Source: Pseudoalteromonas sp. DL-6 (GTDB lineage Bacteria; Pseudomonadota; Gammaproteobacteria; Enterobacterales; Alteromonadaceae). Taken from it: DNA of 64,000 bases. The notes under the pieces were generated by a model. It was not told the origin of the DNA, ran no database searches, and worked only from the letters and a program-made list of their open reading frames with translations. Below, one piece after another: positions 53,439 through 64,000 of this stretch. How positions within the stretch are numbered: position 1 is the stretch's first letter; each line of letters opens with the position of its first letter. The stretch covers positions 310,001 to 374,000 of the forward strand of contig NZ_CP019770.1 of assembly GCF_004328665.1 (NCBI RefSeq), in the 5' to 3' direction. Position numbers and translations under genes: made by a program.

Positions 53439-54704
53439 TTATTGCGCTTGCTGTTTGACTGCTTTCATTTTGTCTTCATTTTGAAGCTCTGATATTAAAA
53501 ATTTCACCCAGTTTTGACTGTATAAGTATCCATCAAACCCTTCCATGTATGATGCATATTCGCCTTTGAAGGCTTTGTCAATTCCCTTTGGGCGAGCTTC
53601 GTAATACTTCCAACACTTAGTATGCAAAGGCATGTTAAAACCTTTTATTTTTTTTAATACTAGCTCAACAATCCTTTTGGGTTTTAGCCGAAATGGATTT
53701 TCGACGCCTTTTATAAATGCGACAGCTTGTTCATAATCTTTTAATTCTTCTTCAGTTAATGCATTCACATTTATAAACTCTACAGCCATGTCTGCTGATT
53801 TTGCATGATTGCCAAGTTTAGGAACCAAAAAGGCCCTTACACGGTACTTTTGGCTTTCAACTACCTCATCGTTTAAGTCATTCCTGTAAGTTTCCATATA
53901 TTCACGGACAACTTTGTAGTTATCTTTTTGCATTTGCTTTAAGGCATCTAACTGAGATTGCTCAGAAATTCTTGTAAGCTGCATTGAAAAGGCTAAGTTG
54001 GCTGTTAATGCATGTTCATCACCAAATTCTTCAACCAGTAATGACTCAAAGTTGCTTAAAGCAGATTGACATTCTCCCGCTACAGCCAAATCAATAGCGG
54101 GTAAGCTTCTATGCTCGATTTTGTTTCTTAGGCCAATTAAGAAATTCAAATTAGCCAGCTCAGGAGATGCACCACTCTGCCAGTATTCACTAGCACATGT
54201 GCTTAACTCCCAAGCTTTCTCCTCACCATCTATTACTTTTGGAGTTCCATTATCGTTAAGATAGAAATATGCAGTGCCTTTCTTTTCAAATATGGCATGA
54301 AAGAGCGATGTGTAAGCAATGATAATATTGACTATATATCCGTAGGTTTTAAATTCGGTATACGGGTTGTTGTATACCGAAACAGCGAGTAGGGCGAATT
54401 CTTTAGCTTTGTGCAGCAAAATGCCTTTTGTGGAGTGATCTGCAACTTGTTGGAGTTTTTGGCTGTGAACGGCACGAAACTCAGCCTTACTTAAATACGA
54501 TATTCCCGATGTGGTGTATTGGGCACCATCTTTTTCAATGTATTGGTGCCAGCGTTTTGATGGGTAAGTTTTACAAGCCCCTTCAGTCCAGCCTGTAGCA
54601 TCTGCCAATTGTTTAATTGTGAAGGACTCACTGAGAGATTCTTTTTCTTTAAAAAATTCGTATGCTAAGTCAACTTTGTCGTATCTACTCATTGGAGCAT
54701 CCAT
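53439..54704 (-). CDS. DUF3644-like protein with HEPN nuclease motif
   Basis: The 421-aa protein opens with a winged-helix-like part (about residues 8-60; FTIKQLADATGWTEGACKTY). A helical core follows, with NFLIGLRNKIEHRS at 187-200. RNKIEH (Arg193-His198) fits the RN-x3-H catalytic signature of HEPN ribonucleases, and the surrounding LxFLIGLRNKIEHR is how DUF3644 proteins look. The C-terminal part (about 290-400) is basic and may bind nucleic acid. It lies 27 bp behind the ParA-like gene. An RNA-cutting defence effector is inferred; activity is unproven. A start at 54692 is possible. Confidence 0.7.
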   Translation of the reverse strand: MDAPMSRYDKVDLAYEFFKEKESLSESFTIKQLADATGWTEGACKTYPSKRWHQYIEKDGAQYTTSGISYLSKAEFRAVHSQKLQQVADHSTKGILLHKAKEFALLAVSVYNNPYTEFKTYGYIVNIIIAYTSLFHAIFEKKGTAYFYLNDNGTPKVIDGEEKAWELSTCASEYWQSGASPELANLNFLIGLRNKIEHRSLPAIDLAVAGECQSALSNFESLLVEEFGDEHALTANLAFSMQLTRISEQSQLDALKQMQKDNYKVVREYMETYRNDLNDEVVESQKYRVRAFLVPKLGNHAKSADMAVEFINVNALTEEELKDYEQAVAFIKGVENPFRLKPKRIVELVLKKIKGFNMPLHTKCWKYYEARPKGIDKAFKGEYASYMEGFDGYLYSQNWVKFLISELQNEDKMKAVKQQAQ

Positions 54705-54731: not shown

Positions 54732-55532
54732 TTAACACAAATCTAAATTGGTTAGAAATGGTACTAAACTATCGTTGTTTTGTTCGTTAGTTTTATTTTT
54801 CACGTATTCTATGATCATTCTCTCATTTTCCTTCGAAACATCAGAAGCTGGAATAATTCCTAGTAAATGCTGTGTGTCACCTTTTACCCTTACTTTATGC
54901 CACCAACATGATATCAACTTTTCAGTGTTTAGATCTGAAGCCTCACAAATACCTATTGCAGGCTCGACGGAAAAATGAACGTGTGAATCGATTGGGATGA
55001 AAATTTTGTCGCATACTTTTTGCAGATGTCTAATGCGCTCATACATATAGCCAGCACTATCTGTTCCGCAGGTAAGTATTATGGTTGCACCTTTGATTTT
55101 CTTAATTTTTTGAAATACTTCAATTACACTATTGTTGTCCCACCAGTTCAAATTAATCACGCCACCGTTATCTTCAAGGGATATGTCTTGTGGATTTATA
55201 AGTACGCTAATTTCTTTTGGTAAAAAATGTTTGAGCAAGTAATCATCACTTTCTATCGTGTTCTTATAGCAGATGAAAACCTTTTTACCAGAGGCAATTA
55301 ACTCTTGAGATAATTTTTTTACAATATGCTTCTCGCCACTACCCCCTTTACTTCTTATAACTCCATATATTGTTAAGCTTTCAAATTCAGGAAGTGGGGG
55401 AGCTGACGTATTAATAGAATTGATGTAACTGTTTTTATCTATTCCAAGTAGATCTGTAAGATTTGTACCTAATTTTCTTTTTTTCATTTTTGCTATCTGT
55501 TGATGATCTTGTTGATAGCAATATAAGCTCAT
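54732..55532 (-). CDS. ParA/MinD-like protein with altered Walker A
   Basis: The 266-aa protein has a ParA-type core: beta strand and loop TIYGVIRSKGGSGEKHIVKK near residues 54-73, then LIASGKKVFICYKN, GATIILTCGTDSAGY near 150, and VCDKIFIPIDSH near 172. The deviant Walker A of this class is KGGxGKT/S, while here it reads KGGSGEKH, so the catalytic Lys is Glu. It may be a pseudo-ATPase or use an unusual site. It heads the four-gene minus-strand cassette. An ATG at 55487 (MKKRKLGTNL) is as likely a start; neither has a strong ribosome binding site. Confidence 0.6.
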   Translation of the reverse strand: MSLYCYQQDHQQIAKMKKRKLGTNLTDLLGIDKNSYINSINTSAPPLPEFESLTIYGVIRSKGGSGEKHIVKKLSQELIASGKKVFICYKNTIESDDYLLKHFLPKEISVLINPQDISLEDNGGVINLNWWDNNSVIEVFQKIKKIKGATIILTCGTDSAGYMYERIRHLQKVCDKIFIPIDSHVHFSVEPAIGICEASDLNTEKLISCWWHKVRVKGDTQHLLGIIPASDVSKENERMIIEYVKNKTNEQNNDSLVPFLTNLDLC

Positions 55533-55956: not shown

Positions 55957-56568
55957 ATGAATGATTATTTTCGCCTATTCGATATTGCCAAAATACGGTT
56001 AGGCCACCCATTTAGAGGAACAATTGAATATGATCCTGATGGTCCTGTTCATGTTGTTCAAGTAAGAGATACACGCGTTACAGGTGAAATTGTTCAAGAC
56101 GAAATGATCAGAACGATTTTACCCACTAAAAAGGAGCCAGATTGGTTACAAGAAGGAGATATACTTTTTGTAGCTAAAGGATCTAAGCACTATGCCGTGA
56201 CGGTTAAAGGCATTCCTGAGCATAGTGTTTGCTCACCGCATTTTTATTTAATTCGATTATACGGTAAAGCAAAACAGAGCTTTATGCCGGAGTTTGTTGC
56301 ATGGCAACTTAATCAGCAATTAGCGCAAAGGTACTTTAAATCTACTGCTGAAGGGTCACTTCATTTAAGTGTCAGAAAGCAAGTGTTACAGGATGCTCCA
56401 ATAAGAAAGATTGACCTTGAAAAACAAGCTCAAATTGTTGCTTTAAACAATGCAGCTATAAAAGAAGAAAAAGTATTGAGACAGTTAATTGAGAATAGAA
56501 AAGCTCAACTTGAGAGCATTGCATATCAAGAATTAGAAACTACTAAATCGGCAAAAGTACAAGATTAA
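55957..56568 (+). CDS. Half-size type I specificity subunit (single TRD)
   Basis: The 203-aa protein resembles one half of an HsdS subunit. It has a target recognition domain of about 145 residues (FDIAKIRLGHPFRG at the start, WLQEGDILFVAKGSKHYAV, SVRKQVLQDAPIRKIDLEKQAQI at its end). A single helical spacer follows (about 150-200; LNNAAIKEEKVLRQLIENRKAQL). It lies 15 bp before hsdM, while a complete hsdS follows hsdM. It could pair as a homodimer to form a second specificity, modify assembly, or be the remnant of an older hsdS. Confidence 0.72.
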   Translation: MNDYFRLFDIAKIRLGHPFRGTIEYDPDGPVHVVQVRDTRVTGEIVQDEMIRTILPTKKEPDWLQEGDILFVAKGSKHYAVTVKGIPEHSVCSPHFYLIRLYGKAKQSFMPEFVAWQLNQQLAQRYFKSTAEGSLHLSVRKQVLQDAPIRKIDLEKQAQIVALNNAAIKEEKVLRQLIENRKAQLESIAYQELETTKSAKVQD

Positions 56569-56583
56569 AAAAGGAAAAACCTG

Positions 56584-58101
56584 ATGACAGAATCAAAAAT
56601 AAATCAAGATGATATCAACAAAGCTGTATGGGCTGCTTGTGAAACGTTCCGTGGTGTGATCAGTGCCGATACTTATAAAGATTTCATCCTGACCATGCTG
56701 TTCTTAAAGTACATCTCTGATATGTATAAAGACGAATACAACAAACTGGTAGCTCAGTACGGTGATAATCCAGATCTGATCCACGCCATGATGTCTAAGC
56801 AGCGTTTTGTATTACCAGAAGGTGCGAGCTTTTGGGATTTGTACGAAGTTCGTCATCAACCGGGCAACGGTGAACGTATTGATAAAGCACTTCACGCACT
56901 AGAAGAAGCCAACGGCAGTAAGCTTAAAAACGTATTCCAAGACATCAGCTTTAACACTGACCGCCTAGGCCAAGAAAAGCAAAAGAATGATTTGCTGCGC
57001 CACTTGTTGGAAGACTTTGGTAAAGATATTTTAAACCTAAGCACAGAGCGTGTGGGCAGTTTAGATATCATCGGTAATGCCTACGAATACCTTATAAAAC
57101 ACTTTGCTGCTGGCAGTGGTGCTAGCGCTGGTGAATACTATACCCCCCCCGAAGTTTCTGATCTGCTAGCAAGAGTTTTAGAGCCAGTTGAAGGCGACCA
57201 AATTTGCGATCCCTGTACTGGTAGTGGGTCGTTGCTTTTAAAATGTGGCGCTATGGTGCGTAAAAACTCTGGCTCAAAAAAATACGCATTATTTGGGCAA
57301 GAAGCGATTGGCTCAACTTGGGCGCTCGCCAAAATGAACATGTTCCTCCACGGGGAAGATAACCACCGCATTGAATGGGGCGACACCATTCGTAACCCTT
57401 TGTTATTAGACAAGGAAGGCACGGGGCTACTGCACTTTGACGTAGTTACAGCTAATCCGCCATTTTCTCTCGAAAAATGGGGGCATGATACTGCTGATAA
57501 CGATCCTTATGGGCGCTTTAGGCGAGGTATTCCACCAAAAACCAAAGGTGACTATGCATTCATCAGCCACATGATTGAAACGCTAAAACCGGAAACAGGT
57601 CGTATGGGCGTGGTTGTACCGCATGGTGTGTTATTTAGAGCATCAAGCGAAGGCAAAATCCGCCAACAACTGATTGAAGAAAACTTGCTAGATACCGTTA
57701 TTGGTTTGCCAGAAAAGTTGTTCTTCGGTACAGGTATTCCAGCAGCTATTTTAATATTTAAAAAGCACAAAACAGACAAAAAAGTATTGTTTATTGATGC
57801 CAGCCGTGAGTTTAAATCAAGTAAAAACCAAAATCAGCTAACTGACGATAACATTCAAAAGATTATCGATACCTACAAGGCTCGTGAAAGCGTAGATAAA
57901 TACGCATATCTAGCCAGTTTTGATGAAGTCAAAGTAAATGACTTTAACCTCAACATTCCTCGTTACGTTGATACATTTGAAGAAGAAGCTGAGATTGATT
58001 TAGTGGCAGTGCGCACTGAACGTGTGCAACTAAAAAATGAGCTGCAAACCCTTGAAGCAGAGATGGAAGGCTACTTAAAGGAGTTGGGTTATGGTGCCTA
58101 A
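56584..58101 (+). CDS. hsdM: Type I restriction-modification methyltransferase HsdM
   Basis: The 505-aa N6-adenine methyltransferase has an N-terminal helical domain (about residues 8-150; NKAVWAACETFRGVISADTY), then GEYYTPPEVSDLLARVLEP near 183, SAM motif I DPCTGSGSLLLK near 210 and catalytic NPPF near 285. The C-terminal tail is helical and meets HsdS. Its base composition and codon use look richer in G+C than the minus-strand cassette. Eight consecutive C (57143-57150) encode the TPP of the TPPE motif. hsdS overlaps its end by 11 bp. Confidence 0.95.
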   Translation: MTESKINQDDINKAVWAACETFRGVISADTYKDFILTMLFLKYISDMYKDEYNKLVAQYGDNPDLIHAMMSKQRFVLPEGASFWDLYEVRHQPGNGERIDKALHALEEANGSKLKNVFQDISFNTDRLGQEKQKNDLLRHLLEDFGKDILNLSTERVGSLDIIGNAYEYLIKHFAAGSGASAGEYYTPPEVSDLLARVLEPVEGDQICDPCTGSGSLLLKCGAMVRKNSGSKKYALFGQEAIGSTWALAKMNMFLHGEDNHRIEWGDTIRNPLLLDKEGTGLLHFDVVTANPPFSLEKWGHDTADNDPYGRFRRGIPPKTKGDYAFISHMIETLKPETGRMGVVVPHGVLFRASSEGKIRQQLIEENLLDTVIGLPEKLFFGTGIPAAILIFKKHKTDKKVLFIDASREFKSSKNQNQLTDDNIQKIIDTYKARESVDKYAYLASFDEVKVNDFNLNIPRYVDTFEEEAEIDLVAVRTERVQLKNELQTLEAEMEGYLKELGYGA

Positions 58102-59329
58102 TGGTTGGAAGCTCTGTTCATTAGTAGATGTCACTAGCTGGTCATCAGGAGGAACACCATCAAAGTCTAATCCTGACTATTGGGGAGGGGACGTACCTTG
58201 GATAAGTGCTGCATCAATGAGAGGCCATTACTATTCAAATTCAGATTTAAAAATCACAGAGTTAGCTGTAAATGAAAAGGCAAAAATGGCAAAGAAAGGA
58301 ACCATTTTGCTGTTAGTTCGTGGAAGTATGCTCTGGAATAAAATCCCCGTAGGCATAACATCCCGCAGAGTAGCTTTTAACCAAGATGTAAAATGTATAT
58401 CCCCGAAGCCGAAAGAATTAGATGTAACTTTTTTACTATATTGGTTTTTAGCCAAAGAAAATAAGTTAATGGGCATGGTTACTGGTACAGGTATTGGCGC
58501 AGGGAAACTTGATACAAATGACTTACAGAGCTTAGATGTTTTTCTACCCCCACTTTCAGAACAACGTAAAATCGCCAAAACCCTATCCACTTGGGATAAA
58601 GCGATTAACACCACAGAGCGCCTAATCGACAACAGTAAACAGCATAAAAAAGCCTTTATGCAACAACTGCTCACTGGCAAAAAGCGCCTACTTGATGATT
58701 CAGGGAAGTCGTTTGAGAGTGGGTGGGAAGAAAAACGCCTTTCAGAATTAGGGGATATATACTCTGGTGGAACACCGAGTACAGCAAAGCCAGAATACTG
58801 GGATGGTGATATTAATTGGGTTACACCTACCGATATTACTAAGCAAGATAGTATTTATATTGAGTCAACTGCTCGACTAGTTTCTATGGACGGTATTAAA
58901 AACAGCTCTGCAAAACTTCTCCCTAAGGGCACACTGCTTGTTTGTACTCGTGCAACGATAGGTGCAATGGCAATTGCAAGTCATGAAATGAGCACCAACC
59001 AAGGTTTTAAAAACATCGTTCCAAATGAGAAGACTAATATTGAGTTTGTGTATTACCTCTTAAATTTCTATAAGCATAAACTAATTAGCAAAGCGAGTGG
59101 TTCGACTTTCTTAGAGCTTTCTAAGAGTGCTTTTGAAGGAATGCATTTTCATATTCCCGATTATCAGGAGCAGAAAAAAATCGCAGCAGTATTACTGAAT
59201 GCAGACCGTGAAATCGATGTATTGCAACAACAGCTTACTGACCTGAAGCAAGAAAAGAAAGCGCTCATGCAGCAATTGTTAACGGGTAAGCGCAGGGTAA
59301 AAATCAACAATAAGGAGTGTGTTGCCTAA
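58091..59329 (+). CDS. hsdS: Type I restriction-modification specificity subunit HsdS
   Basis: The 412-aa protein carries two target recognition domains in tandem. TRD1 opens GWKLCSLVDVTSWSSGGTPS and TRD2 opens GWEEKRLSELGDIYSGGTPS (near residue 215). Each ends in a helical conserved region with near repeats (SEQRKIAKTLSTWDKAI ... MQQLLTGKKRLL and QEQKKIAAVLLNADREI ... MQQLLTGKRRV). The TRDs read the two halves of a split DNA site. The target cannot be read from sequence. Its stop overlaps the start of the next gene (TAATG). Confidence 0.95.
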   Translation: MVPNGWKLCSLVDVTSWSSGGTPSKSNPDYWGGDVPWISAASMRGHYYSNSDLKITELAVNEKAKMAKKGTILLLVRGSMLWNKIPVGITSRRVAFNQDVKCISPKPKELDVTFLLYWFLAKENKLMGMVTGTGIGAGKLDTNDLQSLDVFLPPLSEQRKIAKTLSTWDKAINTTERLIDNSKQHKKAFMQQLLTGKKRLLDDSGKSFESGWEEKRLSELGDIYSGGTPSTAKPEYWDGDINWVTPTDITKQDSIYIESTARLVSMDGIKNSSAKLLPKGTLLVCTRATIGAMAIASHEMSTNQGFKNIVPNEKTNIEFVYYLLNFYKHKLISKASGSTFLELSKSAFEGMHFHIPDYQEQKKIAAVLLNADREIDVLQQQLTDLKQEKKALMQQLLTGKRRVKINNKECVA

Positions 59330-61227
59330 TGGAAATTAGTAGTCCTTTAGTACAGTTAGCGCTATTAGAGTCTTTAAAAGCAAATGAAATTTCAGATGAA
59401 ATAGATTTATTTTTGCCATTTATTGCGGTCACTTTGTCTGAACTAGGAAAATTGGAGATTACTCCTGAAATTCTTCAAGATGAGCTAGCAAAATCCTTTG
59501 GATTTAAACCTCCAATTTCAGCAATTAAAGTCTTTATAACGCGAGCTAAAAAAAGAAAACTACTCCATAGGGAAAATCATGTCTTCATCCCTAATATTGA
59601 GAAGGTTAACCAGTGGAAAAATGGTTATCATGAAAAGAAAGAAGACATAGCGGTATCCTTAGAGTTACTTCGAAAAGACTTCATTGATTTCGCAAAAAGC
59701 AAATTCGAAAAGGATCTGTCGGCTAATGAGTGCGACATCTTAATTGAACAGTTCATTTATAAAAATATAGCCAGTGTTTCTAATGCTAAATCTTTTGAGA
59801 AGAATGAACTGAAAGAAAAATTAAAGAACACGGACCATGTTACCGCATCTTTCATAAGTCATATTCATAAAAACAAAACCTCTTCATTGGATCATTTTTC
59901 AAGGATCGTAAAAGGTATGTTACTGGCAAACTATTTATGTTTTGCGGATAAGATTGGCACCAAAAGTAACTATCAAAGCTTGACTGTTTATCTAGACACT
60001 CCAATTATTGTTGGTTTGCTAGGGTTTAGTGGTTTACAGAAGCAAAACTCTTTAAAAGAATTTGTCACATTACTTAAGAATGTAGGTATTAACCTTTGTG
60101 TTTTTGATAAAACCCTAGATGAGACAGAGCAATTACTTTCAGCATGGAAAGATGACCTTGCTCGAAAGAACTATAAACGATTTAATACCAAAACTTTAGA
60201 ACTACTGCGCTATTTAGGATATGACTCGGCTAGGTTAGACTCCGAGATTAAATTATTGAAATCTTCGTTAGAAAACATGGAGGTAAACTTAAAATATGGT
60301 TTTAAACCAAAACGTCAATTCCAGTGTGATGAAATAGCGCTTGAAAAAGCAATATCTAAAAACTTTAAAGAATCTAAAAATTTAGAACACGACACTGTTT
60401 GTATATCACGTGTCTACAACATGCGAGAGGGTAAATTAATTTCTGATTTAGATCAGTCTTTCTCGGTATTTGTAACTCCTAATACTGGACTAGTAACAAC
60501 AGCTAATAAATTCTTTGAAGAAGAAATTCCTAAAAAAACTATTCCCCTTGTTGTTTCGGAACAATGGATGACAGCTATGTTTTGGTTAAAAAAACCAGAG
60601 CTATTTGGCAATCTTCCAATGGATCAAATTATATCTTCAGCTTACGGTTTGCTATATACAGACGATAAGTTCTGGAATTGCTTTATAACTAAACTTGAAC
60701 ACTTGGAAAAGAGTAAAAAGATTACAGAAGCGGACTTAATTCAAGTGAGATGGGATTCAGATCTTCTTGGGATGGTTCATGATGTATCCGTGGATGTAGG
60801 TGAGAATTTTACAGATGAAGATGTCTTTGACATTGTTGAAGCAATCAAGAAAAAGCATATCGAAGAAAAAGAATTAGAAATATCCAAACTTCAAGAAGAC
60901 ATTGATGGCAAACATTCCAAGCTTGAAGAAACAAAACGCAGACATGGAAAGATCGCAAATATAGTTTCATGCATTCCCTCAATCCTTTTGTCGCTTACCC
61001 TCGGTGGCGTAATACTTTGGATCGCATTATTAGCACTACCGAAAGAGTTATTACCGCAGTACATCAATCCAGAATATCAAAAATTTAGCATTACTTCGTC
61101 AGCGGTAATAATTGTTTTTGTGCTTAATATATTAGGTAGCTTTTTTGGTATTAATTTATTAACTATTTACCGTTCCTCTAAAAGATTTATCTACCAAAAA
61201 ACATTCAGAATGTTACAAGGAGAGTAA
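59329..61227 (+). CDS. PIN-like nuclease candidate with C-terminal membrane anchor, in the hsd operon
   Basis: The 632-aa protein is of no family I can name. A helical N-terminal part (about residues 1-215) looks winged-helix-like near 45-90 (ITPEILQDELAKSFG). A region like a PIN nuclease follows: YLDTPIIVGLLG near 221-232, FDKTLDETEQLL near 259-270, EHDTVCISRVY near 353-363, and FSVFVTPNTGLVTTANKFF. The last position, usually Asp in PIN (VTxD), is Asn. A charged coiled coil (about 505-540) leads to two membrane segments (about 547-570 and 588-613). It overlaps hsdS (TAATG) and precedes hsdR by one base, so it belongs to the operon. Confidence 0.7.
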   Translation: MEISSPLVQLALLESLKANEISDEIDLFLPFIAVTLSELGKLEITPEILQDELAKSFGFKPPISAIKVFITRAKKRKLLHRENHVFIPNIEKVNQWKNGYHEKKEDIAVSLELLRKDFIDFAKSKFEKDLSANECDILIEQFIYKNIASVSNAKSFEKNELKEKLKNTDHVTASFISHIHKNKTSSLDHFSRIVKGMLLANYLCFADKIGTKSNYQSLTVYLDTPIIVGLLGFSGLQKQNSLKEFVTLLKNVGINLCVFDKTLDETEQLLSAWKDDLARKNYKRFNTKTLELLRYLGYDSARLDSEIKLLKSSLENMEVNLKYGFKPKRQFQCDEIALEKAISKNFKESKNLEHDTVCISRVYNMREGKLISDLDQSFSVFVTPNTGLVTTANKFFEEEIPKKTIPLVVSEQWMTAMFWLKKPELFGNLPMDQIISSAYGLLYTDDKFWNCFITKLEHLEKSKKITEADLIQVRWDSDLLGMVHDVSVDVGENFTDEDVFDIVEAIKKKHIEEKELEISKLQEDIDGKHSKLEETKRRHGKIANIVSCIPSILLSLTLGGVILWIALLALPKELLPQYINPEYQKFSITSSAVIIVFVLNILGSFFGINLLTIYRSSKRFIYQKTFRMLQGE

Positions 61228-61228
61228 T

Positions 61229-64000
61229 GTGAATAGGCAAATAAAATTTCAAGAAGAATTCAGCGCCAAGTTTCCTGCGTTAAGCCTTTTAAGCAACTTA
61301 GGCTACAGCTTTATTCCACCCATTGAATGTGAAGCTCTGCGTGGCAATACATTAGCAAGCGGTAAGAAAAGCACCCATCAGGTCATTTTGTTACCTATAT
61401 TGCGTGATTTTTTAGCGAAACAAATGTTTTCGTTTGCGGGTAAGCGACATACATTATCAGAAGCAGCTATTGATAAGGTGATGCATGAGCTTAACCCTGC
61501 CATGAACTTAGGGTTAAAAGGCGCTAATGAGAAAATTTATAATGCTCTAATGTATGGCGTTAGCGTTAACGAATTCATTGACGGGAAAAAAGCCTCCACC
61601 ACTATAAAACTCATTGATTGGCACAACATCGATTATAATCAATTCCACTTCACAGAAGAATTTGTTGTTCAAAATGCAGAAGGCACTGGTAATCGGATTC
61701 CAGATATTGTGTGTTTTGTGAATGGTTTACCGTTAGTGGTGATTGAGGCAAAACGCCCGGATTCAAATAAAGAAGGTAAATCGACCAACGCTGAGGCGAT
61801 TTCTCAGCATATTCGGAACCAAGGTCAGGCTGAAATTCCTCACTTGTATACCTATAGCCAATTGTTATTAGCTGTAAATGGGCATGAAGGTTTATATGCC
61901 ACATGCGGTACTCCAGAAAAATTCTGGGCTAAGTGGAAGGAAGAACAAATACCCGAAGCTGAATTTGTTAGGTTAAAAAATCATAAACTGAGCGATGAAC
62001 AATTAAATGGGCTGTTTAAGCATCGTCCTGCCAAAGCGAAAGATGATTACCTATCATTGGTTGCTGCGGGTGAGTTAACAGTTACCGATCAAGATAGGCT
62101 TATAGTCAGCTTGCTTCGGCCTGAGCGCCTGCTTGATATGACTCGCTTGTTTACCTTGTTTGATAAAAAAGCAGGCAAGATAGTTGCTCGATACCAGCAG
62201 GTATTTGGCATAAAAGCACTTATTGAGCGAATTAACACGTTTGATGATTCAGGCGCTCGTGAAGGTGGTGTTATTTGGCACACCACAGGCAGTGGCAAGT
62301 CATTTACTATGGTGTTTTTATCAAAAGCGCTTATATGGCTTGAAGAGCTTGCGCAGTGCCGCGTAATTATTGTGACTGACCGAGTGGATTTAGAAGACCA
62401 GCTAAGCCGTACGTTTGCCTCAGGTGGTGTACTCACCGACCGCGATAAAAAAGATGCAATGGCAACCACAGGTAAACGTTTAGCGGAGCAAATTGGTCAA
62501 AGTAACGAGCGGGTTATTTTTTCGATTGTTAATAAGTTTGGCTCTGCCATAAAACACAAAAACTGCTACAACGATAGCCCAAATATAATTGTGTTAGTGG
62601 ATGAAGGCCACCGCAGCCAGAACGGTGAAAATAATATCCGTATGCAGCAGACGCTGCCTAAAGCGGCCTATATTGCTTTTACGGGTACGCCACTGTTGAA
62701 GGACGACAAGACCGAGAACAAATTCGGTAAGATCATCCACTCCTATACTATGCAGCAAGCGGTTGAAGATAAAACTGTGACCCCTCTGTTGTATGAAGAG
62801 CGTATTCCAGAGCTGAACGTTAACGACAAAGCCATTGATGCATGGTTTGAACGCAGCACCAGTAAACTAACTGACAAACAAAAAACCGATCTGAAGAAGA
62901 AGTTTTCTCAAAAAGGTCAAATCTACCAAACCGAAGGTCGCATTGAATTAATCGCATACGATATTGCTGACCACTTCCAGAACTTTAAACAGCAAGGCTT
63001 AAAAGGTCAGCTAGCTTGTGATTCCAAAGCCTCTGCAATTCGTTATAAGAAGGCATTAGACAAAATTGGTACGGTGACATCGGTTGTGGCGATGTCGGCT
63101 CCAGATACTCGTGAGGGTCACGAGGCTGTTGATCAAGAAAGTAAGGATATTGTGCAAAATTGGTGGAAGGCTAACGTGAACAAAATGGACGAAAAAGCCT
63201 ACACTAAGGCCATTATTGAAGACTACGGCAGAGATGATGGCCCAGACATCATGATCGTAGTTGATAAGCTCCTGACAGGCTTTGACGAGCCAAAGAATAC
63301 GGTGCTTTATATCGATAAGCCTCTGAAAGAGCACAACCTAATACAAGCAATTGCCCGTGTTAACCGATTGCATAGTAAAAAGCAGTTTGGTTACTTAATC
63401 GATTACCGAGGCATATTAAAAGAACTTGATACCACAATAGAAAAGTATCAAGACCTTGCTGAGCGTACCCAAGGCGGTTTTGATATAGATGACCTAAAAG
63501 GTTTGTATAACCGCATGGACACGGAATACAAAAAGCTTACCAATCTGCACAGTGATTTGTGGGCGATATTTGATGGGGTTAAAAACAAGCAAGATGGCCC
63601 AGCACTTCGCCAAGCGTTAGCGCCAAAGGTGCAAGATGTAGATGGTAAGCTTGTTGATACCAATCTTAAAAAGCGTGATGACTTCTATTCAGCACTAACT
63701 GCATTTTCTAACTGTATGAAAGTAGCTTTGCAATCAGCAACCTACTTTGAGGATAAGTCTTTTGATAACAAGCGTGACTTGTACAAACGTGATCTAAAAG
63801 CCTTTGTCGATTTGCGCAAACAAGTGCGAGAAGATGCTGACGAAACCATTAATTATGATGAATACGCTGAAGATATTCGCAGCCTTCTAGACAAGCACAT
63901 TGCTGGTATTGAAGTTAAAGAGCCTGATGGTGCGTACTTGGTCGGCAATTTAGGGAAAGACGTTAAGCCACAGGATATGAGCGATGATGAGGCTCGAAAC
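61229..64000 (+). CDS. hsdR: Type I restriction endonuclease HsdR (3' end outside window)
   Basis: The frame is open from a GTG, with AAGGAG six bases upstream, to the window edge (924 codons). The N-terminal nuclease domain has IPDIVCFVNGLPLVVIEAKRP near residues 152-172, the PD-ExK site. The motor has Walker A HTTGSGKS near 351-358, DEGHR near 458 and TGTP near 485. A later helicase motif is ARVNRLHSKKQFGYLIDY near 710. HsdR with HsdM and HsdS translocates DNA and cuts unmodified targets. The C-terminal HsdM-contact part continues beyond the window. It follows the PIN-like gene directly. Confidence 0.93.
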   Translation, partial: MNRQIKFQEEFSAKFPALSLLSNLGYSFIPPIECEALRGNTLASGKKSTHQVILLPILRDFLAKQMFSFAGKRHTLSEAAIDKVMHELNPAMNLGLKGANEKIYNALMYGVSVNEFIDGKKASTTIKLIDWHNIDYNQFHFTEEFVVQNAEGTGNRIPDIVCFVNGLPLVVIEAKRPDSNKEGKSTNAEAISQHIRNQGQAEIPHLYTYSQLLLAVNGHEGLYATCGTPEKFWAKWKEEQIPEAEFVRLKNHKLSDEQLNGLFKHRPAKAKDDYLSLVAAGELTVTDQDRLIVSLLRPERLLDMTRLFTLFDKKAGKIVARYQQVFGIKALIERINTFDDSGAREGGVIWHTTGSGKSFTMVFLSKALIWLEELAQCRVIIVTDRVDLEDQLSRTFASGGVLTDRDKKDAMATTGKRLAEQIGQSNERVIFSIVNKFGSAIKHKNCYNDSPNIIVLVDEGHRSQNGENNIRMQQTLPKAAYIAFTGTPLLKDDKTENKFGKIIHSYTMQQAVEDKTVTPLLYEERIPELNVNDKAIDAWFERSTSKLTDKQKTDLKKKFSQKGQIYQTEGRIELIAYDIADHFQNFKQQGLKGQLACDSKASAIRYKKALDKIGTVTSVVAMSAPDTREGHEAVDQESKDIVQNWWKANVNKMDEKAYTKAIIEDYGRDDGPDIMIVVDKLLTGFDEPKNTVLYIDKPLKEHNLIQAIARVNRLHSKKQFGYLIDYRGILKELDTTIEKYQDLAERTQGGFDIDDLKGLYNRMDTEYKKLTNLHSDLWAIFDGVKNKQDGPALRQALAPKVQDVDGKLVDTNLKKRDDFYSALTAFSNCMKVALQSATYFEDKSFDNKRDLYKRDLKAFVDLRKQVREDADETINYDEYAEDIRSLLDKHIAGIEVKEPDGAYLVGNLGKDVKPQDMSDDEARN

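Follow-up and report, generated by a model that had tools for sequence, protein, structure and literature searches.

Gene X, a predicted membrane-anchored PIN-like protein gene between hsdS and hsdR of a type I restriction operon, as a candidate autonomous defence gene

Does the embedding of a gene in a restriction operon signify functional coupling to the restriction enzyme, or only shared transport? A case for asking this question is a gene, here called X, that lies between hsdS and hsdR in Pseudoalteromonas sp. DL-6 (contig NZ_CP019770.1, positions 310,001 to 374,000; this whole stretch of 64,000 nucleotides is the window to which coordinates refer unless a locus is named). Matches to Pfam, PADLOC and NCBIfam models identify the neighbours hsdM, hsdS and hsdR as a genuine type I system (Table 1). 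We argue that X is probably an autonomous single-gene anti-phage system, a membrane-tethered PIN ribonuclease (RNase) that would stay silent until infection, would act in abortive defence and is carried as cargo in the hsdS-hsdR slot. The junctions are tight: X and hsdS overlap by one base, the A of the X ATG being also the final base of the stop codon of hsdS, hsdR starts with a GTG at 61229, one base past the end of the X stop codon, and an AAGGAG motif is found upstream of both X (59312-59317) and hsdR (61217-61222). A promoter scan of 58900-61400 yielded 7 sites against a chance expectation of 8.4, and 0 terminators against 1.6 expected.

The sister operons that bear on this question were sampled with the HsdM of the window, regardless of X. 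Among 295 order-level genomes, 26 further loci encode an HsdM of at least 70% identity; 25 of these operons are complete, and every one of the 25 contains at least one open reading frame (ORF) of at least 100 amino acids (aa) between hsdS and hsdR. The 42 ORFs fall into 28 blastp families, none of which includes X. Eight more loci (L055-L062; HsdM identity 58-87%) were found among 369 class-level genomes, of which seven are complete, five with cargo and two (L055 and L060) without. Altogether, cargo other than X occupies the slot in 30 of the 32 complete sister operons, two slots are empty and X is present in none (L028 and L059, in which the contig ends before hsdR, were left out of this count). 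The junctions of the slot cargo are commonly tight, many of the gaps falling in the range of -13 to +20 bases.

All 28 order-level cargo families were scanned with Pfam and 20 with PADLOC (left out of the latter were proteins of 127 aa in L029, 227 aa in L037, 139, 210 and 455 aa in L040, 342 and 172 aa in L042 and 205 aa in L046); the cargo of L055-L062 was counted only. The slot holds CBASS in L024 (HNH-SAVED plus cyclase), L032 (two-transmembrane, 2TM, effector plus cyclase) and, by cluster, L046, Septu in L035, SIR2-HerA in L038, dCTP deaminase in L047, McrBC in L040 and, by cluster, L049, as well as the PADLOC candidates S02, S05, S14, S20 and S63. A strong PADLOC match, direct or by cluster, was obtained in 16 of the 25 order-level loci, to which McrBC adds 2 by Pfam; well-established systems, independent of the PDC labels, are present in 8 of the 25. 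Since the corresponding position in related operons is taken by other anti-virus genes, X is probably a further such gene, as yet undescribed, and not a part of the restriction enzyme, and its role in defence is, by this association, likely. The hsdS-hsdR slot has been described as a defence hotspot on the basis of RptR/DarTG2 (PMC12255303) and TgvAB (PMC11411939), and guilt by embedding is a known approach, as cited in PMC12988326. New here are the X family, its build of winged helix, PIN domain, coil and two membrane helices, the absence of matching models in the libraries searched, and the slot occupancy count for this operon lineage. With such an occupancy by foreign cargo, new defence genes can readily be sought in the slot.

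X is not a chance ORF: a search of approximately 5.8 billion proteins yielded 135 homologues at E <= 1e-3, the best 120 of which share 35-92% identity with X and are unnamed or annotated as 'hypothetical protein', bar an odd automatic name. A profile search (A2) produced 133 relatives at E <= 1e-8, six of them new to this list (P0122-P0127). The family is rare, with profile A1 matching 2 of the 369 class-level and 3 of the 295 order-level genomes (both counts include the DL-6 genome, in which X is a single-copy gene) and giving one match, previously known, in 4 genomes of one family; a DNA search with a Klebsiella copy found X in 2 of 5,426 E. coli genomes. Among plasmids, tblastn matched 11 records, those of Pantoea and Klebsiella at 49-50% identity and, at 22-25%, six from Enterococcus and one each from Hymenobacter, Sporosarcina and Arthrobacter. 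The same search of 50,697 phage records returned no match, and the only relative among viral contigs has the same protein sequence as the copy in the E. coli prophage L022, which rules out X as a general phage gene.

Across 22 X loci, 5 copies are located in the hsdS-hsdR slot, 2 lie beside other hsd genes (in L014 and L016, where the type I genes are of a different kind) and 15 have no hsd match in the stretch examined, based on tblastn searches (E 1e-4) over 3.4-26 kb with the proteins of the window as queries; 8 of the 11 plasmid records were opened, and the E. faecium loci L004, L053 and L054, whose neighbourhoods are alike, were counted once. The homes of X include prophages with P2-type genes (L021, L022 and L023), plasmids (L002-L007) and the chromosomes of L012, L013, L015 (a broken copy) and L019, with distant copies on the short stretches L018 and L020. 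Defence-like neighbourhoods were found on two of the plasmids, with the relative in L005 adjoining a methylase/helicase/AAA/TIR cluster and that in L006 an NTase/ThiF/Mov34/SAVED cluster. In L023, X is inserted between the tail-sheath and tail-fibre-assembly genes, at what we take to be the fun(Z) site. This position differs from the cos-side A-Q hotspot as described in PMC9122126. The broken copy in Pseudomonas sp. Kh13 (L015:9001-11002) is split in two frames (283 + 405 aa), near what by eye is an integrase-like gene. A preliminary description of the window had presented X as a 632-aa gene that overlaps hsdS, abuts hsdR and is built into the restriction operon, and had asked whether its homologues always lie in hsd operons. 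The size, the overlap and the adjacency are confirmed by the coordinates, but the interpretation is supported only in part and calls for revision: the operons lacking X and the hsd-free relatives show that X is not a dedicated hsd part, and its homologues are by no means confined to hsd operons.

The slot position is held only by the closest X clade, in 5 of 5 loci opened: the window, L008 (92% identity), L009 (72%), L010 (58%) and L011 (58%). In the X tree, these five copies form one clade (support 100/99), and its sister clade unites seven copies, found in prophages, on plasmids and in chromosomes, with no hsd genes in the stretches examined. On the HsdM tree, operons with other cargo separate the five X-carrying loci from one another, with 4 changes, and a single clade of X carriers is rejected (log-likelihood drops by 429; approximately unbiased test, p-AU 7e-56), indicating that cargo has been exchanged between operons. 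X bears the marks of hsd-embedded cargo, namely its position between hsdS and hsdR and a slot content that is exchangeable between close operons. The identity of X to the window copy tracks that of HsdR (X/HsdR 92/96, 72/71, 58/62 and 58/60 in L008-L011), so that X has either long resided in the slot and been replaced in the sisters or moved between slots long ago. Two of these loci have an in-frame stop in hsdR and an open X, L009 at codon 185 (L009:5040-6452; a low-coverage contig by its name, whose end also truncates hsdR) and L011 at codon 763 (L011:10947-14312); the stops represent either real decay or sequencing errors. In L010:11001-13999, two more genes follow X in the slot, by eye a MoxR-type ATPase and its partner.

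Conservation was counted in an alignment of 127 family proteins, with X and fragments included. D223 is Asp in 126 of the 127 (one gap), E265 and D355 are invariant (127/127 each), N385 is Asn in 122 of the 127 and T383, the motif threonine, is kept in 125 of the 127. Given its presence in 122 proteins, the Asn at position 385 reflects a family-wide change from Asp and not local decay; it lies within a T-x-N motif resembling the L-x-S/T-x-N described for an active proteobacterial VapC (PMC4229260). In the structure model, DSSP assigns one unbroken predicted helix to residues 496-569, and at least two hydrophobic segments start within the last 160 residues in 104 of the 114 family proteins of at least 600 aa; the sequence of the membrane segments is poorly conserved in the family alignment. 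The ratio of non-synonymous to synonymous substitution rates (dN/dS) between X and its relative in L008 is about 0.03, which likewise speaks against a chance ORF but is a rough value because dS is near saturation; the values for the PIN domain (0.011) and the coil plus membrane part (0.026) are likewise rough, dS being saturated. In the same comparison, the proportion of synonymous differences (pS) is 0.25 over the first 100 codons of X (59329-59628) and 0.53-0.74 over the remainder, which suggests a recombination border inside X.

The fold prediction assigns X the alpha/beta fold of PIN domains, and three acids of the active site are conserved. An Enterococcus relative that aligns with X end to end (26% identity over X 23-614) has a weak sequence match to PIN_3 (E 5.7e-4), its score of 21.1 bits lying below the cut-off of 27. 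X itself belongs to no family of Pfam, NCBIfam or PADLOC 2.0.0 (best E 0.18 and 0.35 in the former two, none at E <= 1 in PADLOC), and the sole PADLOC 2.0.0 match of seven X relatives was LeoA (E 0.0031), to a coiled stretch of L005. A profile search of PDB sequences gave 7 matches up to E 1, none of them a PIN chain and the best a phosphofructokinase (E 0.0075). We found no publication on the family in the open-licence literature. As for the protein, the preliminary description had proposed a D...E...D layout with the last Asp changed to Asn, a long coiled coil and two C-terminal membrane helices, and had called for structure prediction of a PIN fold; the layout holds across the family, the coil reappears as the continuous helix and the membrane helices as two hydrophobic segments, and a PIN fold was called.

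If X is an autonomous defence system, the two C-terminal helices would hold it at the inner membrane with the winged helix and the PIN domain in the cytoplasm, and the coiled coil would probably cluster it. In the resting cell the PIN domain would be silent through autoinhibition; phage infection, sensed via the winged-helix/helical half or the membrane anchor, would turn it on, and the active domain would cut tRNA or rRNA in a VapC-like manner, stopping translation and hence phage spread. Such an RNase activity is plausible. Placement in the hsd operon would let X be expressed and transferred between genomes together with the hsd genes, without making it a subunit.

Several observations weigh against this reading. 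The fourth acid is absent in X, and although H. influenzae VapC1 and others are described as having Asn at that position, they have a compensating Glu at N+3 (PMC4229260), where 125 of the 127 family proteins have Leu (Leu388 in X). The active site could, judging from these residues, be weak or dead, which lowers the claim of catalysis but not that of the fold. The distant relatives in L018 and L020 also lack D355. A whole-model Foldseek search of the PDB gave no match at E <= 0.001; the top rows are mostly methyltransferases with poor TM-scores, and the best PIN chain, 1w8i, ranks 13 (E 0.62, prob 0.92), which leaves VIA and the conserved residues as the basis of the fold call. Furthermore, PDC labels are defined by embedding, as described in PMC12988326, and the slot evidence derived from them is therefore partly circular; the neighbours of X in L012 and L013, inspected by eye, include no genes recognised as defence genes.

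The location of X also recalls PrrC, a latent RNase in the EcoprrI hsd operon that is described as acting as a guard (PMC3874165, PMC2610378). By analogy, X of the slot clade would be silenced by HsdM/HsdS or HsdMSR and freed when a phage blocks restriction, whereupon it would cut RNA and kill the cell; the single, well-supported clade of slot copies, the parallel identities of X and HsdR in the four other slot loci, with no sign of a recent transfer of X only, and the contact of X with both neighbouring genes in the window are in line with this. We nevertheless consider it unlikely, given that the sister clade is hsd-free in the stretches examined, that tight junctions are common to slot cargo generally, that L009 and L011, two of the other four slot loci, have an interrupted hsdR next to an open X, and that the slot is interchangeable, with occupants such as Septu or SIR2-HerA that work alone. 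Decidedly improbable is the bolder proposal that X represents a new defence family, a membrane-tethered PIN RNase held inactive at the inner membrane and firing locally at the site of phage DNA entry, its slot clade being an HsdMS-silenced guard released by anti-restriction proteins; if true, a link of the PrrC type would have evolved independently a second time, from a nuclease with an unrelated fold.

The missing fourth acid would also suit a membrane effector, in which the winged helix and a catalytically dead, RNA-binding PIN-like domain sense infection and the helices depolarise the membrane, and two-helix membrane effectors do serve defence, as in the L032 slot. However, it is the three acids and T383 that are kept and the membrane segments that are poorly conserved, a contrast also seen in the rough dN/dS values, and we regard such an effector as a rather remote prospect. 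It is hardly credible that X, bound to the membrane, regulates the restriction enzyme or assists it structurally, for instance by keeping HsdMSR at the membrane close to the point of DNA entry, since X is absent from all complete sister operons found by HsdM and 15 of 22 X loci have no hsd match in the stretch examined. The same absence from the sister operons rules out a dedicated hsd subunit. A VapC with its antitoxin is ruled out because no small gene is adjacent, X directly touching hsdS and hsdR, and a PrrC or RloC because scans of X up to E 1 against Pfam, NCBIfam and PADLOC brought up no model of the AAA/ABC or PrrC kind. Read as autonomous cargo, X enlarges the set of candidate single-gene defences by a family of 135 proteins (E <= 1e-3) that has no profile in these three libraries, and it combines a predicted PIN fold with a predicted membrane anchor.

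Table 1. Features of the X locus (window coordinates)
Feature	Position	Strand	Details
Half-HsdS, 203-aa single-domain HsdS-like gene upstream of hsdM	55957..56568	+	PADLOC Specificity_I E 2.7e-10
hsdM	56584..58101	+	Pfam PF02384 E 1e-104; NCBIfam TIGR00497
hsdS, left border of the slot	58091..59329	+	Pfam PF01420 E 1.1e-53
X	59329..61227	+	632-aa winged-helix/PIN/coiled-coil/2TM protein (predicted); ATG 59329, stop ends 61227
Predicted N-terminal winged helix-turn-helix, residues 24-98	59398..59622	+	
PIN-like domain, residues 217-412	59977..60564	+	D223 59995-59997; E265 60121-60123; D355 60391-60393; N385 60481-60483
Long helix/coiled coil to membrane, residues 496-551	60814..60981	+	DSSP helix in structure model
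Predicted membrane helix 1, residues 552-570	60982..61038	+	Kyte-Doolittle mean 2.55; net charge +4 in preceding 17 residues
Predicted membrane helix 2, residues 593-611	61105..61161	+	Kyte-Doolittle mean 2.40; net charge +4 in following tail
hsdR, right border of the slot	61229..64000 (genome: to 64519, window-relative; L051)	+	TIGR00348 E 2e-140; PADLOC REase_I E 0
YgjP-like peptidase gene, 274 aa, directly 3' of hsdR	64525-65349, window-relative (outside the window; L051)		PF01863

Several features surround the operon. A gene of the half-HsdS kind also precedes hsdM in 15 of the 26 order-level sisters, 7 of the 8 class-level loci and L008-L011 (truncated in L009, where the contig begins), and may serve as a regulator or a spare half-subunit. 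A YgjP-like relative is a constant companion: in each of the 35 related loci with contig sequence beyond hsdR, it is encoded on the same strand as hsdR. A second insertion point is evident from extra genes between hsdM and hsdS in L055 (4497-5594), L028, L039, L044 and L061. Upstream of the half-HsdS gene in L010, L011 and L024, TniQ-like and other Tn7-like transposition genes were recognised by eye, and these operons may travel in Tn7-like elements. On the minus strand of the window, 53439-54704 encodes a DUF3644 protein that matches the PADLOC candidate PDC-S19 (E 3.5e-104) and adjoins an uncharacterised 266-aa gene (54732-55532); the region around it may be a wider defence island.

Among known systems, VapC toxins share the PIN fold predicted for X, which differs in being nearly five times longer, in its predicted membrane anchor and in having no adjacent antitoxin gene. 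PIN nucleases have been validated in defence, namely DS-3 and DS-5, and DS-3 is described as a single gene that lacks a cognate antitoxin and depends on its catalytic residues (PMC13092281). By that description its PIN domain is split between the N and C terminus, whereas that of X is central. PDC-S70, another PIN defence candidate (PMC12988326), has no sequence match to X, for which PADLOC gave none up to E 1. PrrC and X are both nuclease-type genes embedded in hsd operons. In PrrC, an anticodon-nuclease domain stands next to an ABC-ATPase, whereas X combines a winged helix, a PIN domain, a coil and membrane helices. The resemblance of PrrC to ABC proteins is noted in PMC2610378, and this latent RNase (PMC3874165) is described as sequestered by the restriction enzyme and released on T4 infection (PMC3874165, PMC2610378). 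Closest in layout are two islands: RRDM, in which DarTG2 separates hsdS from hsdR and a gene for an M48-family peptidase lies downstream (PMC12255303), and VPI-2, with the GmrSD-like pair TgvAB embedded between the same genes (PMC11411939). The X locus shares with RRDM the position of the cargo and a downstream peptidase gene, here YgjP-like (PF01863); it differs from both islands in its cargo, which is unrelated to the DarTG2 toxin-antitoxin and to the GmrSD-like pair, and in the half-HsdS gene directly before hsdM.

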